Positions 11,138 to 44,764 of a stretch of DNA of 64,000 bases are shown here, in pieces. The stretch comes from Actinopolymorpha singaporensis (GTDB lineage: Bacteria > Actinomycetota > Actinomycetes > Propionibacteriales > Actinopolymorphaceae), in the NCBI RefSeq assembly GCF_900104745.1, contig NZ_LT629732.1, positions 1,116,001-1,180,000 of the forward strand. The letters run 5' to 3'. A model generated the notes under the pieces. That model made no database searches, had not been told where the DNA came from, and saw only the letters and a program-made list of their open reading frames with translations. The translations under genes were made by a program, and so were the position numbers. Numbering within the stretch: position 1 is the first letter of the stretch; each line of letters opens with the position of its first letter.

Positions 11138-11207
11138 GCGGGAACCCCCCTTTCCTGTAAGGGAAATCGCGCCTGTGGACGAGGGGGTTGTTGTCGGTGG
11201 TGGCCGG

Positions 11208-11213
11208 TAGGGT
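11208..11213 (+). promoter_or_regulatory. -10 hexamer of the DUF222-HNH gene
   Basis: TAGGGT lies 6 nt before the ATG at 11220, which implies a leaderless mRNA. Confidence 0.55.
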
Positions 11214-22430: not shown

Positions 22431-22678
22431 GCCTGGATGACCCCCTGTCGAACGACTGTGGTCCTCGGGTTCCGTCCTGGGACGGACCCTCCGCCCGCGT
22501 CGTCGCCGCGGCGCGGGAGTTTCCGAGCCTATGCCGTCACTCCGACACCCGTGATCGGCATGTCCGCGGGAGATGGATCGGCCGAACGTGGGGGACGAGG
22601 CCGGGCGGGATGCGCCGACGGGCAGGCGAGTGCGGCACGTGGACGGCGTTCCCAGCAGGAGGTGGGCGGAACAGAGTA

Positions 22679-38513: not shown

Positions 38514-39875
38514 TCAGCCCTGGGCCATGTCGACGAAGCGGGAGTAGTGGCCCTGGAAGGCGACGGTGATGTTGGCTGTGGGCCCGTTGCGGTGCTTGGC
38601 GACGATGAAGTCGGCCTCGCCGGGACGGGAGGATTCGCGTTCGTAGGCGTCCTCGCGGTGCAGGAGGATCACCATGTCCGCGTCCTGCTCGATGCTGCCC
38701 GATTCGCGAAGGTCGGAGAGCATCGGGCGCTTGTCGGTGCGCTGCTCAGGACCGCGGTTGAGCTGGGACAGCGCGACGACGGGGACGCCGAGCTCCTTGG
38801 CCAGCAGCTTGAGGTTTCGGGAGAACTCCGCGACCTCGACCTGGCGGCTCTCCACCCGCTTGCCGGACGTCATCAGCTGGAGGTAGTCGAGGACGATCAA
38901 CCGCAGGTCGTGGCGCTGACGCAGCCGCCGGCACTTGGCCCGGATCTCCATCAGCGTCATGTTGGGCGAGTCGTCGATGTAGAGCGGCGCGCCGGAGACC
39001 TCACCCATCCGCCGGGCCATCCGCGCCCAGTCGTCGTCGGTCATGCTGCCCTGCCGCATGTGGTGCAGCGGGACCCTCGCCTCCGCCGACAGCAGCCGCA
39101 TGGTGATCTCGGTGCGGCTCATCTCCAACGAGAAGATCACCGACGCAAGGCCGTGCTTGACCGACGCCGCGCGGGCGAAGTCGAGCGCCAGCGCGCTCTT
39201 GCCGACACCGGGACGGGCCGCGACGACGATCAGCTGGCCGGGGTGCAGGCCGTTGGTCAGCGCGTCGAGGTCGGTGAACCCCGTGGGCACGCCGACCATC
39301 TGCCCGCCACGGGAGCCGATCGCCTCGATCTCGTCGAGGGCAGACTCCATGATCTCGCCGAGGACGGCGTAGTCCTCGCTGCTGCGCTTGTCGGTGACGC
39401 TGTAGATCTCCGCCTGCGCCCGGTCGACCACGTCGTCGACGTCACCGTCGCCTGCGTACCCGATCTGGGTGATCTTGGTGCCTGCCTCGACCAGCCGGCG
39501 CAGGATCGCCTTCTCCCGCACGATCGCGGCGTAGTAGCCGGCGTTGGCCGCCGACGGCACCGAGGCGATGAGGGTGTGGAGGTAGGGCGCGCCGCCGATG
39601 CGCGCCAACTCGCCCTTGCGCTGTAGCTCGGCCGCCACGGTCACCGCGTCGGCAGGCTCGCCCCGGCCGTAGAGGTCGAGCACCGCCTCGTAGACGGTCT
39701 CGTGCGCGGGACGGTAGAAGTCGGGGCCGCGGATCTCCTCCACGACGTCGGCGATGGCGTCCTTGGACAGCAGCATGCTGCCGAGCACGCACTGCTCCGC
39801 GGCGAGGTCCTGCGGCGGCATCCGGTCGGGTGCACCTTCGACCGCGCGTGGGACAGGGAACTCACTGACACTCAC
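38514..39875 (-). CDS. dnaB: Replicative DNA helicase DnaB
   Basis: Hexameric 5'-3' replication fork helicase, 453 residues. The N-terminal primase-interacting domain covers about residues 20-120 (EQCVLGSMLLSKDAIADVVE). The RecA-like motor has Walker A ARPGVGKSALALDFARA near 221, Walker B LIVLDYLQLM near 328, and the DnaB motifs SLEMSRTEI, SQLNRGPEQR and LSDLRESGSIEQDADMVILL. Inteins are frequent in actinobacterial dnaB; none is inserted here. It is separated from the rpsF operon by the MATE gene on the other strand, and its promoter region carries DnaA-box-like sequences. Confidence 0.98.
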   Translation of the reverse strand: MSVSEFPVPRAVEGAPDRMPPQDLAAEQCVLGSMLLSKDAIADVVEEIRGPDFYRPAHETVYEAVLDLYGRGEPADAVTVAAELQRKGELARIGGAPYLHTLIASVPSAANAGYYAAIVREKAILRRLVEAGTKITQIGYAGDGDVDDVVDRAQAEIYSVTDKRSSEDYAVLGEIMESALDEIEAIGSRGGQMVGVPTGFTDLDALTNGLHPGQLIVVAARPGVGKSALALDFARAASVKHGLASVIFSLEMSRTEITMRLLSAEARVPLHHMRQGSMTDDDWARMARRMGEVSGAPLYIDDSPNMTLMEIRAKCRRLRQRHDLRLIVLDYLQLMTSGKRVESRQVEVAEFSRNLKLLAKELGVPVVALSQLNRGPEQRTDKRPMLSDLRESGSIEQDADMVILLHREDAYERESSRPGEADFIVAKHRNGPTANITVAFQGHYSRFVDMAQG

Positions 39876-40056
39876 TGCCGCACTACCTCCGACGCTCCAC
39901 CCGTGACGAACACCTGTGCGACAGTTCTAGCGGCGACCACCGACAACGCGACAAAGGTCGTGCGCGAGCGGACAGGGGTTCGACGTGAGAGGCGACCGTA
40001 CGCCGGGCAGGGCGGTGAGCGGCAACCCGGTCGTACACAGGGGTTGTGGGTAGCCG

Positions 40057-40096
40057 GGGGATTGCCTGGGGATTCGCTGTGCACAGCCTGGGGATT
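40057..40096 (+). repeat. Helically phased GGGGATT iterons
   Basis: GGGGATT occurs at 40057, 40068 and 40090, that is 11 and 22 bp apart, on the same face of the helix. The two right copies sit in a longer GCCTGGGGATT unit. They lie directly beside the short A/T-rich stretch 40101-40116 and the DnaA-box cluster. Confidence 0.6.
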
Positions 40097-40100
40097 TCTC

Positions 40101-40298
40101 TGTGGAGAAAATTTCGGGGAGCGCGGGATCAGGCGGTTCGCCTGCGAATTCGGCGTCCCCACGCTGTGGACACAACAGCGGTCCGGAGAAAGTGCCCGGC
40201 AATTGCTTGCCCGGGCGTGTCGTCCACACCGGGCGCGCCGTGCCCGGTGTCCACACCACGGTCCCCACACCGCCTTGTCCACACCGAGGTGTGGACAG
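40101..40298. promoter_or_regulatory. Cluster of DnaA-box-like 9-mers
   Basis: Against the actinobacterial box TTGTCCACA, one exact match lies at 40275-40283. Single-mismatch forms lie at 40220-40228 and 40247-40255 on the same strand. On the opposite strand single-mismatch forms lie at 40101-40109, 40165-40173 and 40290-40298. Six boxes in 198 bp is far above chance even in GC-rich DNA. It could regulate dnaB by DnaA, titrate DnaA or act in origin control. The main oriC is expected next to dnaA, outside the window. Confidence 0.65.
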
Positions 40299-40464
40299 CC
40301 GGAAGCCGGAAGCCGGGCCGCGCCCGTAGCGACCCGGTCCACCGGCCCCGGGCCGACGGTCAGCCGCACTCGCGGTACCCGCATCATGGGGACGGCCACT
40401 CCCACCCGAGCCACACCCACATCTGCCCGAACCGTGCCGCGATGTCCCCGGAGGTCTCCTGCCC

Positions 40465-41796
40465 GTGTCCCTCATCCGGCTCCGGAGCGCCCACGACCGG
40501 GAGATCCTGCGCTTGGCGGTGCCGGCGTTCGGCGCGCTGATCGCCGAACCCGTCTACCTGTTGGCCGATTCCGCGATCGTCGGCCACCTGGGAACCCCGC
40601 AACTCGCCGCCCTCGGCCTGGCCGGCACGGCCCTGCAGACTCTGGTCGGCGTGTTCGTCTTCCTCGCCTACGCCACCACCGCGTCCGTCGCCCGTCATCT
40701 CGGCGCGGGCGACCGCCGGTCGGCGCTGGCGTACGGCATCGACGGGCTGTGGCTGGCGCTCGGGCTCGGGGTCCTGCTCGCGCTGGTCGGCACGCTGGCA
40801 GCACCGGCCGTGGTCAGCGCCTTCGGGCCCTCACCGCAGGTGCACGAGTTCGCGGTCAGCTACCTGCGGGTGGCGGTGCTCGGCATGCCAGCGCTGCTTC
40901 TGACGTTCGCGGGGACGGGCGTGCTGCGCGGGCTGCAGGACACCCGTACGCCGCTGTGGATAGCGGGCGCGTCCTACGTCGGTAACGTCGTGCTCAACGT
41001 CCTCTTCGTGTACGGCCTGCACCTGGGGATCGCCGGCTCGGCGTTGGGAACGGTGCTCGCCCAGACTGCCGGAGCCGTGGCGCTGGTCGTCGTGGTGGTC
41101 CGGGCCGCCCGCCGGTACGACGCGCCCCTGCGGCCGGACCTGACCGGCATCCGGGCGAGCGCGCACGCCGGCGTACCGCTGATCGTCCGCACGCTGACGC
41201 TGCGGGCCGCGCTGCTGGTCACCGCGTACGTCGCCACGTCGTTCGGTGACGTGCCGCTGGCCGCACACCAGGTGGCGTTCACCCTGTGGAACACCCTCGC
41301 CATCGCCCTGGACGCGATCGCGATAGCCGGTCAGGCCATCGTGGGACGTTACCTCGGCGGGTCCGACGTGGCCGGTACGCGGGCGGCGACCCGCCGGATG
41401 ATGGAGTGGGGCGTCGGCGCGGGCGTGGTGTTCGGCGCGGTGGTGGTGCTGGCGCGACCGGCGTACGTGCCGTTGTTCAGCGCCGACCCGGCCGTCCAGG
41501 CACTGCTCGCCCAGGCCGTCCTCGTCTTCGCCTGCTTCGAACCGGTCGCGGGGATCGTATTCGTGCTGGACGGCGTTCTCATCGGCGCGGGGGACGGGAA
41601 GTACCTCGCCTACGCGGGGCTGGTGACGCTGGTGGCGTTCCTGCCGCTCGCGCTGCTGGTGTACGCCGCCCACGCGGGCCTGCTCGCGCTGTGGTGGGCG
41701 TTCGGGGGGTTCATGGTGGCCCGGCTCGCGACTCTCGCGGTGCGGGCCCGAGGCGACGCCTGGCTGGTGACCGGGACCGGCGCAGCCCGGCGCTGA
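40465..41796 (+). CDS. MATE family efflux transporter (DinF-like)
   Basis: Cation-coupled multidrug/organic-compound exporter of 443 residues with twelve predicted membrane helices. Diagnostic parts are LAVPAFGALIAEPVYLLADS, IVGHLGTPQLAALGLAG, GVLRGLQDTRTPLWIAG and AHQVAFTLWNTLAIALDAIA with IAGQAIVGRYLGG, as in the DinF subgroup. The GTG at 40465 follows a GGAGG. A MATE gene between rplI and dnaB is also found in Streptomyces, so this is conserved context. A shared terminator hairpin separates it from rplI. Confidence 0.93.
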   Translation: MSLIRLRSAHDREILRLAVPAFGALIAEPVYLLADSAIVGHLGTPQLAALGLAGTALQTLVGVFVFLAYATTASVARHLGAGDRRSALAYGIDGLWLALGLGVLLALVGTLAAPAVVSAFGPSPQVHEFAVSYLRVAVLGMPALLLTFAGTGVLRGLQDTRTPLWIAGASYVGNVVLNVLFVYGLHLGIAGSALGTVLAQTAGAVALVVVVVRAARRYDAPLRPDLTGIRASAHAGVPLIVRTLTLRAALLVTAYVATSFGDVPLAAHQVAFTLWNTLAIALDAIAIAGQAIVGRYLGGSDVAGTRAATRRMMEWGVGAGVVFGAVVVLARPAYVPLFSADPAVQALLAQAVLVFACFEPVAGIVFVLDGVLIGAGDGKYLAYAGLVTLVAFLPLALLVYAAHAGLLALWWAFGGFMVARLATLAVRARGDAWLVTGTGAARR

Positions 41797-44698: not shown

Positions 44699-44758
44699 GG
44701 CGCCTTCCTTTCTCGCGGCGGACCGCGGGCCGTGGCGGGCGGTGTCGGTGGACCCTCG

Positions 44759-44764
44759 TAGGGT
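44759..44764 (+). promoter_or_regulatory. -10 hexamer of nfo
   Basis: TAGGGT lies 7 nt before the ATG at 44772; leaderless arrangement. Confidence 0.6.

Follow-up and report, generated by a model that had tools for sequence, protein, structure and literature searches.

A helically phased DnaA-box array precedes dnaB in Actinopolymorpha singaporensis and across Actinomycetes and probably belongs to a DnaA-controlled promoter

Several described systems bear on a DnaA-box cluster that lies beside a replication gene. The E. coli nrdAB promoter and the DnaA targets of Caulobacter crescentus are DnaA-activated promoters, and in other bacteria DnaA represses its own gene. The low-affinity DnaA-site arrays of E. 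coli oriC are built of 9-mers placed 2 bp apart. In Streptomyces coelicolor the DnaA-box clusters H69, H24 and D78 have reportedly been found (work said to have appeared in J. Bacteriol. in 2006), and D78 is said to affect initiation frequency.

The closest described system is mycobacterial. Hicks et al. (2020, PMC7738170) report that DnaA binds upstream of dnaB in vitro and in vivo in Mycobacterium tuberculosis (the Rv0057 region) and Mycobacterium smegmatis, that this is one of only five strong DnaA sites, together with oriC and the dnaA promoter, and that the homologues of all five sites are DnaA-bound in M. smegmatis in vivo. The article also describes less binding upstream of dnaB and lower dnaB expression in the DnaA I282T mutant, a link that is a correlation from one mutant, and cites Caulobacter dnaB as a DnaA target. 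DnaA binding upstream of dnaB is thus already known in mycobacteria. The mycobacterial site is like the one studied here in that it is DnaA-bound and holds the same position upstream of the same gene, whereas the parts of PMC7738170 consulted describe neither a phased array nor its geometry towards the promoter, and neither the GCAGGTCAG element nor conservation wider than mycobacteria. Nor did the searchable literature yield the array architecture, promoter anchoring, class-wide conservation or an element shared with oriC. The mycobacterial binding data are taken here as evidence from relatives rather than as proof for this organism.

The window, that is, the whole stretch of 64 kb analysed here, covers bases 1,116,001-1,180,000 of the 6.40-Mb, single-contig genome of A. 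singaporensis. Around the spacer the gene order is dnaB (minus strand), a divergent MATE gene (plus strand), then rplI, ssb and rpsF. The two genes flanking the spacer are:

38514..39875, minus strand: dnaB, replicative DNA helicase (453 aa, no intein; NCBIfam TIGR00665, 537.9 bits against a cut-off of 385)
40465..41796, plus strand: divergent MATE-family transporter gene (TIGR00797), which the array does not need

Since dnaA is at 1,201,986-1,203,572 with dnaN next to it, in the usual dnaA-oriC-dnaN arrangement, the dnaB spacer lies about 46 kb from that origin region. An earlier note on this DNA had placed the cluster in the dnaB/MATE spacer and not between dnaA and dnaN, and this holds, the true oriC being about 46 kb away. 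The genes identified around the spacer by profile matches are chromosomal housekeeping genes. An open reading frame of 182 aa that covers the spacer (39872-40420, minus strand) was rejected as a gene and is probably spurious, because close relatives differ by 1-bp indels in the alignments. The same may hold for M. tuberculosis Rv0057, a frame annotated across the DnaA-bound site that corresponds to this one. As a separate observation, dnaB of three genomes of the same genus (G001-G003; loci L136, L137 and L138) breaks off after about residue 400 inside a longer open frame, which is what an intein would produce, and dnaB of this genome and of G004 is uninterrupted.

The conserved core of the box cluster is 40031-40173. 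The elements of the cluster are as follows, the six direct slots being given in their minus-strand order from 40109:

40220-40228 (plus strand), 40247-40255 (plus strand), 40275-40283 (plus strand, exact TTGTCCACA) and 40290-40298 (minus strand): four distal boxes, which vary within the genus
40165..40173, minus strand: conserved outer box GTGTCCACA, which precedes slot -56 by 64 bp, or six turns
40138..40145, minus strand: GCAGGTCAG element in its local form GCAGGCGA, between outer box and array
40101..40109, minus strand: slot -56, TTCTCCACA, TCCACA core invariant in the alignment
40089..40097, minus strand: slot -44, AAATCCCCA, holding the GGGGATT copy at 40090-40096 (alignment and slot scoring)
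40078..40086, minus strand: slot -33, CTGTGCACA, CCTGTGCACA core invariant in the alignment
40067..40075, minus strand: slot -22, GAATCCCCA, holding the GGGGATT copy at 40068-40074 (slot scoring)
40056..40064, minus strand: slot -11, CAATCCCCC, holding the GGGGATT copy at 40057-40063 (slot scoring)
40045..40053, minus strand: slot 0, CTACCCACA, the last sense box (alignment and slot scoring)
40031..40039, plus strand: terminal array box TCGTACACA, antisense to dnaB, head-to-head with the next box and 5 bp from it

The slots follow one another in steps of 11 bp and once of 12 bp and score 8, 6, 7, 6, 5 and 7 of 9 against the DnaA consensus, where a score of at least 6 is found at 1.8% of positions in the spacer (P(>=6) = 0.018). 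All six boxes with at most one mismatch that had been counted in 40101-40298, including the exact TTGTCCACA at 40275-40283, are present, and GGGGATT indeed occurs at 40057, 40068 and 40090 with spacings of 11 and 22 bp. What did not stand is the reading of GGGGATT as a separate iteron motif; its copies are instead degenerate DnaA boxes on the minus strand in the 11-bp register, occupying the second, fourth and fifth slots with 6, 6 and 5 of 9 consensus matches. The 64-kb window has no copies beyond these three, a count not above chance (3.6 expected). One relative, G006, has TCATCCACA at the second slot (-44), where this genome has GGGGATT, and two others, G017 and G009, have TTATGCACG at the fifth slot (-11) and TTGTCCACA at the sixth (slot 0). 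The array is like those of E. coli oriC in having weak boxes at 11-bp spacing between stronger ones, but differs from them in that it is without an unwinding element and is positioned against a promoter.

In the 400 kb scanned around the origin, four or more one-mismatch boxes fall within 250 bp at the dnaB spacer and nowhere else. Under a Poisson model with the local background rate, at least seven boxes would fall in 222 bp with a probability of 7e-14 per site, or about 2e-9 over the whole genome. Close pairs of TCCACA are chained in threes here and at the dnaA promoter, and no longer chain occurs genome-wide. In the dnaA-dnaN region of this genome (G000:C1:1203576-1204066) three one-mismatch boxes are seen by the common consensus, fewer than in the dnaB spacer, and most of the boxes there are further from consensus.

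At least three boxes are found within 700 bp upstream of dnaB in 120 of the 127 upstream regions from Actinomycetes. Among 52 genus representatives, 600 bp of upstream sequence contain 185 sense and 92 antisense boxes against 7.3 expected per strand, and a control stretch 900-1500 bp upstream in the same representatives contains 8, both strands together. Their same-strand box spacings show a 10.75-bp period (R = 0.71, n = 247), and adjacent pairs alone, in 35 genomes, give R = 0.68, which none of 2000 jittered sets reached. Relatedness makes these sequences non-independent, but the phase persists through changes in box sequence and spacing. In a sample taken across the phylum, the genomes of the same class carry the array, and Streptomyces has a corresponding one upstream of dnaB, which answers in part the question whether the cluster has a counterpart there. 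The array is absent upstream of dnaB in 23 genomes from other classes of the phylum (0-3 boxes) and from five plasmid-borne dnaB genes (0-1 boxes). It is kept with or without the divergent MATE gene; an element belonging to that gene was considered and rejected, as the array persists in genomes without a MATE gene between rplI and dnaB.

When dnaB upstream regions of the genus are aligned with those of two further genera in its family, of another family and of Nocardioides, they share TCCACAG, CCTGTGCACA, CCACA-N5-TGTG and, with minor changes, GCGTACGGTCG. The 64-bp spacing from outer box to array recurs in G004, G003 and G001 and, in other genera of the family, in G007 and G006. Comparison of dnaB upstream regions in relatives, the check that the earlier note had proposed, thus gave a divided answer: the core boxes are kept, but the four distal boxes (40220-40298) vary within the genus, with none in G004 and just the 40220 box in G003 and G001. 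The array is a real and ancient regulatory region, a helically phased series of DnaA boxes before the dnaB promoter.

Two elements of that promoter are placed on the minus strand:

40018..40025, minus strand: weak -35 region, GCCGCT (17-bp spacer) or TTGCCG (19-bp spacer), a choice of spacer that we infer
39995..40000, minus strand: TACGGT, the putative -10 hexamer of the dnaB promoter, which lies within GCGTACGGTCG, a stretch nearly invariant in the family

Across the genomes compared, the array typically ends in a head-to-head box pair, 14 bp apart, and most relatives have TTRTCCACA at this same +14 offset, the terminal box being degenerate in this genus. By the pattern used, a recognisable terminal pair is absent in about a third of genomes. 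In 71 of the 86 genomes that have the pair, and in 21 of 28 representatives, TAnnnT starts 28-30 nt after the terminal box, and in those 86 genomes it is rare elsewhere in the 90 nt that follow this box. The boxes are therefore held at a constant distance from a promoter element, as expected of a DnaA-controlled promoter, and the terminal box comes to lie near -45 of the dnaB promoter. Judged from the sequence, this would be a position where activators contact RNA polymerase. At the position of the -35 and -10 elements, 5 nt beyond the box, Streptomyces has TTGGCT-N17-TACCGT. This genus has a degenerate terminal pair (7 and 5 of 9 matches) and a weak -35, and in this genome the distance to the -10 is 30 nt, at the edge of the 28-30 nt range. 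Scans of the spacer for a strict sigma-70 consensus and for terminators gave no match, the former as expected because the -35 is weak.

We consider it likely that the spacer is a DnaA-controlled, and probably DnaA-activated, dnaB promoter. In such a promoter, DnaA would bind the outer box (40165-40173) and the contiguous array of seven 9-mers (40109 to 40031 in minus-strand reading). As the six direct boxes lie 11-12 bp apart and mix stronger with weak sites, they favour a DnaA filament that would form cooperatively along a single face of the helix and may depend on ATP. The seventh, inverted box would end just upstream of the -35 of a sigma-A-type promoter (TACGGT at 40000-39995), with a predicted transcription start near 39988. 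Bound DnaA would most likely touch RNA polymerase from about -45 and activate dnaB, and the supply of helicase would thereby be coupled to the level of active DnaA. The E. coli nrdAB and Caulobacter targets are like this locus in that DnaA acts as a transcription factor from boxes upstream of -35, but differ from it in the array, which here is long and helically phased, has an inverted pair at its end and is kept class-wide. A DnaA-controlled promoter was one of two possibilities raised in the earlier note, and it is supported by the fixed promoter geometry, by conservation with dnaB and not with the neighbouring gene, and by the DnaA binding published for mycobacteria; this binding and the I282T data support a DnaA-controlled, more likely activated, dnaB promoter (PMC7738170). 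The same layout across Actinomycetes suggests that DnaA itself controls the amount of helicase; the initiator appears to set helicase supply through the same fixed architecture in nearly every genus examined. Replication timing in Actinomycetes, including Streptomyces and mycobacteria, is poorly understood, and the dnaB control region offers a directly testable link. The array may also explain why DnaA binds at the annotated frame Rv0057 in M. tuberculosis.

A second reading, unlikely but deserving of weight, is that the cluster is a DnaA reservoir or inactivation-reactivation site, like datA, DARS or Streptomyces D78, which tunes initiation and lies next to dnaB incidentally. It is the densest of the three regions compared in the same genomes (7.5 boxes per 700 bp at dnaB, where oriC has 3.3 per 900 bp and the dnaA promoter region 1.6 per 700 bp), and it resembles S. 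coelicolor H69, H24 and D78 as a cluster outside oriC in the origin-proximal region, where, at about 46 kb from oriC, it is duplicated early. A pure sink, however, needs neither a fixed distance to a -10 element nor the same partner gene where the neighbours differ between genomes. One cluster can do both jobs, and the role may coexist with promoter control.

We find it improbable that DnaA instead represses dnaB, with the bound array blocking the promoter and tying helicase synthesis to low free DnaA. The terminal box adjoins the -35 and could also serve repression, for which the autorepression of dnaA in other bacteria is a precedent, but the boxes lie upstream of -35 and not over the -10 or the start, and the mycobacterial mutant that binds less at this site under-expresses dnaB (PMC7738170).

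A second or ancestral replication origin is very improbable. Weak and strong boxes in phase are origin-like, and the GCAGGTCAG element is common to the dnaB array and the oriC of relatives. Against this, no conserved A/T-rich unwinding region was found in the spacer, where A+T reaches at most 42% per 50 bp; the cumulative GC-skew minimum in the 400 kb analysed is near 1.22 Mb (1.20-1.24 Mb), close to dnaA (1.202 Mb), with no inflection at dnaB (1.156 Mb); and dnaA-oriC-dnaN is in its usual place. On the strength of GC skew and the lack of a conserved unwinding region we reject this origin, and with it the origin module that had been proposed here as the other possibility. The A/T-rich stretch reported with it does exist, at about 40106-40115, but is weak and not conserved outside the genus. 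Least credible of all are iterons of plasmid or phage type that serve a different initiator, or repeats arisen by chance: the GGGGATT copies do lie at 11 and 22 bp, but in the 11-bp DnaA-box register with clear boxes in some of these slots in relatives, none of the genes identified near the spacer is a replicon gene, the identical direct repeats with a nearby Rep protein that mark a plasmid iteron origin are not what the locus has, and conservation in the alignment contradicts chance.

The GCAGGTCAG element was compared between dnaB loci and the oriC and dnaA-promoter loci of different families (L182-L211). Upstream of dnaB, GCAGGTCA is present in 70 of 127 regions against 1 in shuffles. It stands at fixed distances to the boxes, most commonly 25 bp beyond one box core and with 39-40 or 63 bp to the next. 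It also occurs between dnaA and dnaN in G005, G007 and most genomes of family f3 examined; in several f4 genomes it lies ahead of dnaA. In this genus the element has drifted, to GCAGGCGA at dnaB and GCTGCTCAG at oriC. It is about twofold or more enriched genome-wide over reversed controls in most genomes tested, and many of the copies elsewhere are probably unrelated. We recognised no known binding protein for GCAGGTCAG. A class-wide module of two proteins, in which DnaA and a hypothetical GCAGGTCAG-recognising factor would act both at dnaB and at oriC or the dnaA promoter, is a tentative possibility. If true, it would link initiator activity, helicase supply and origin firing in Actinomycetes. 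To our knowledge Actinomycetes are without the known E. coli regulators of DnaA, and the shared element gives a sequence handle on a possible missing regulator.

A further promoter element lies closer to dnaB:

39924..39945, minus strand: PafBC-type motif TGTCGGTG-N8-TAGAAC (whole: TGTCGGTGGTCGCCGCTAGAAC), imperfect at the last base, between the promoter and dnaB

The RecA-independent DNA-damage promoter of PafBC has the motif TGTCGG-N10-TA-N3-T, and in M. tuberculosis the induction of dnaB by mitomycin C is partly PafBC-dependent (PMC8151990). The present element is a near-match to this motif: it has TGTCGGTG-N8-TAg directly upstream of dnaB, but the final -10 base differs in this genus. A relaxed form of the motif is found in 82 of 127 dnaB upstream regions (0.65 in shuffles) and the strict form, with TAnnnT, in 35 of 127 (0.15 in shuffles), this genus having TAGAAC instead. 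A second, PafBC-type promoter near dnaB would add induction by DNA damage to the control by DnaA. Exact matches to TGTCGG-N10-TAnnnT also occur elsewhere in the window, at 44743-44764 (plus strand), 11192-11213 (plus strand) and 22526-22547 (minus strand), where 0.18 are expected; of these, the copy at 44743 immediately precedes a gene resembling endonuclease IV (named by eye).

Apart from the dnaB locus, we observed a genus-conserved motif, TCCACA-N10-CGGC-N7-TCCACA, which consists of two DnaA-box-like halves 27 bp apart and is nearly absent outside the genus. There are 8 exact copies (G000:C1:5601466, 5754923, 1950519, 3804102, 3865238, 4925766, 5747910 and 3130178; loci L256-L263) and about 5 near copies, mostly in apparently noncoding DNA. 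The motif is found just upstream of recA and of yraN-comM, and near homologues of recR, rpsB and dinB, these genes having been named by eye.
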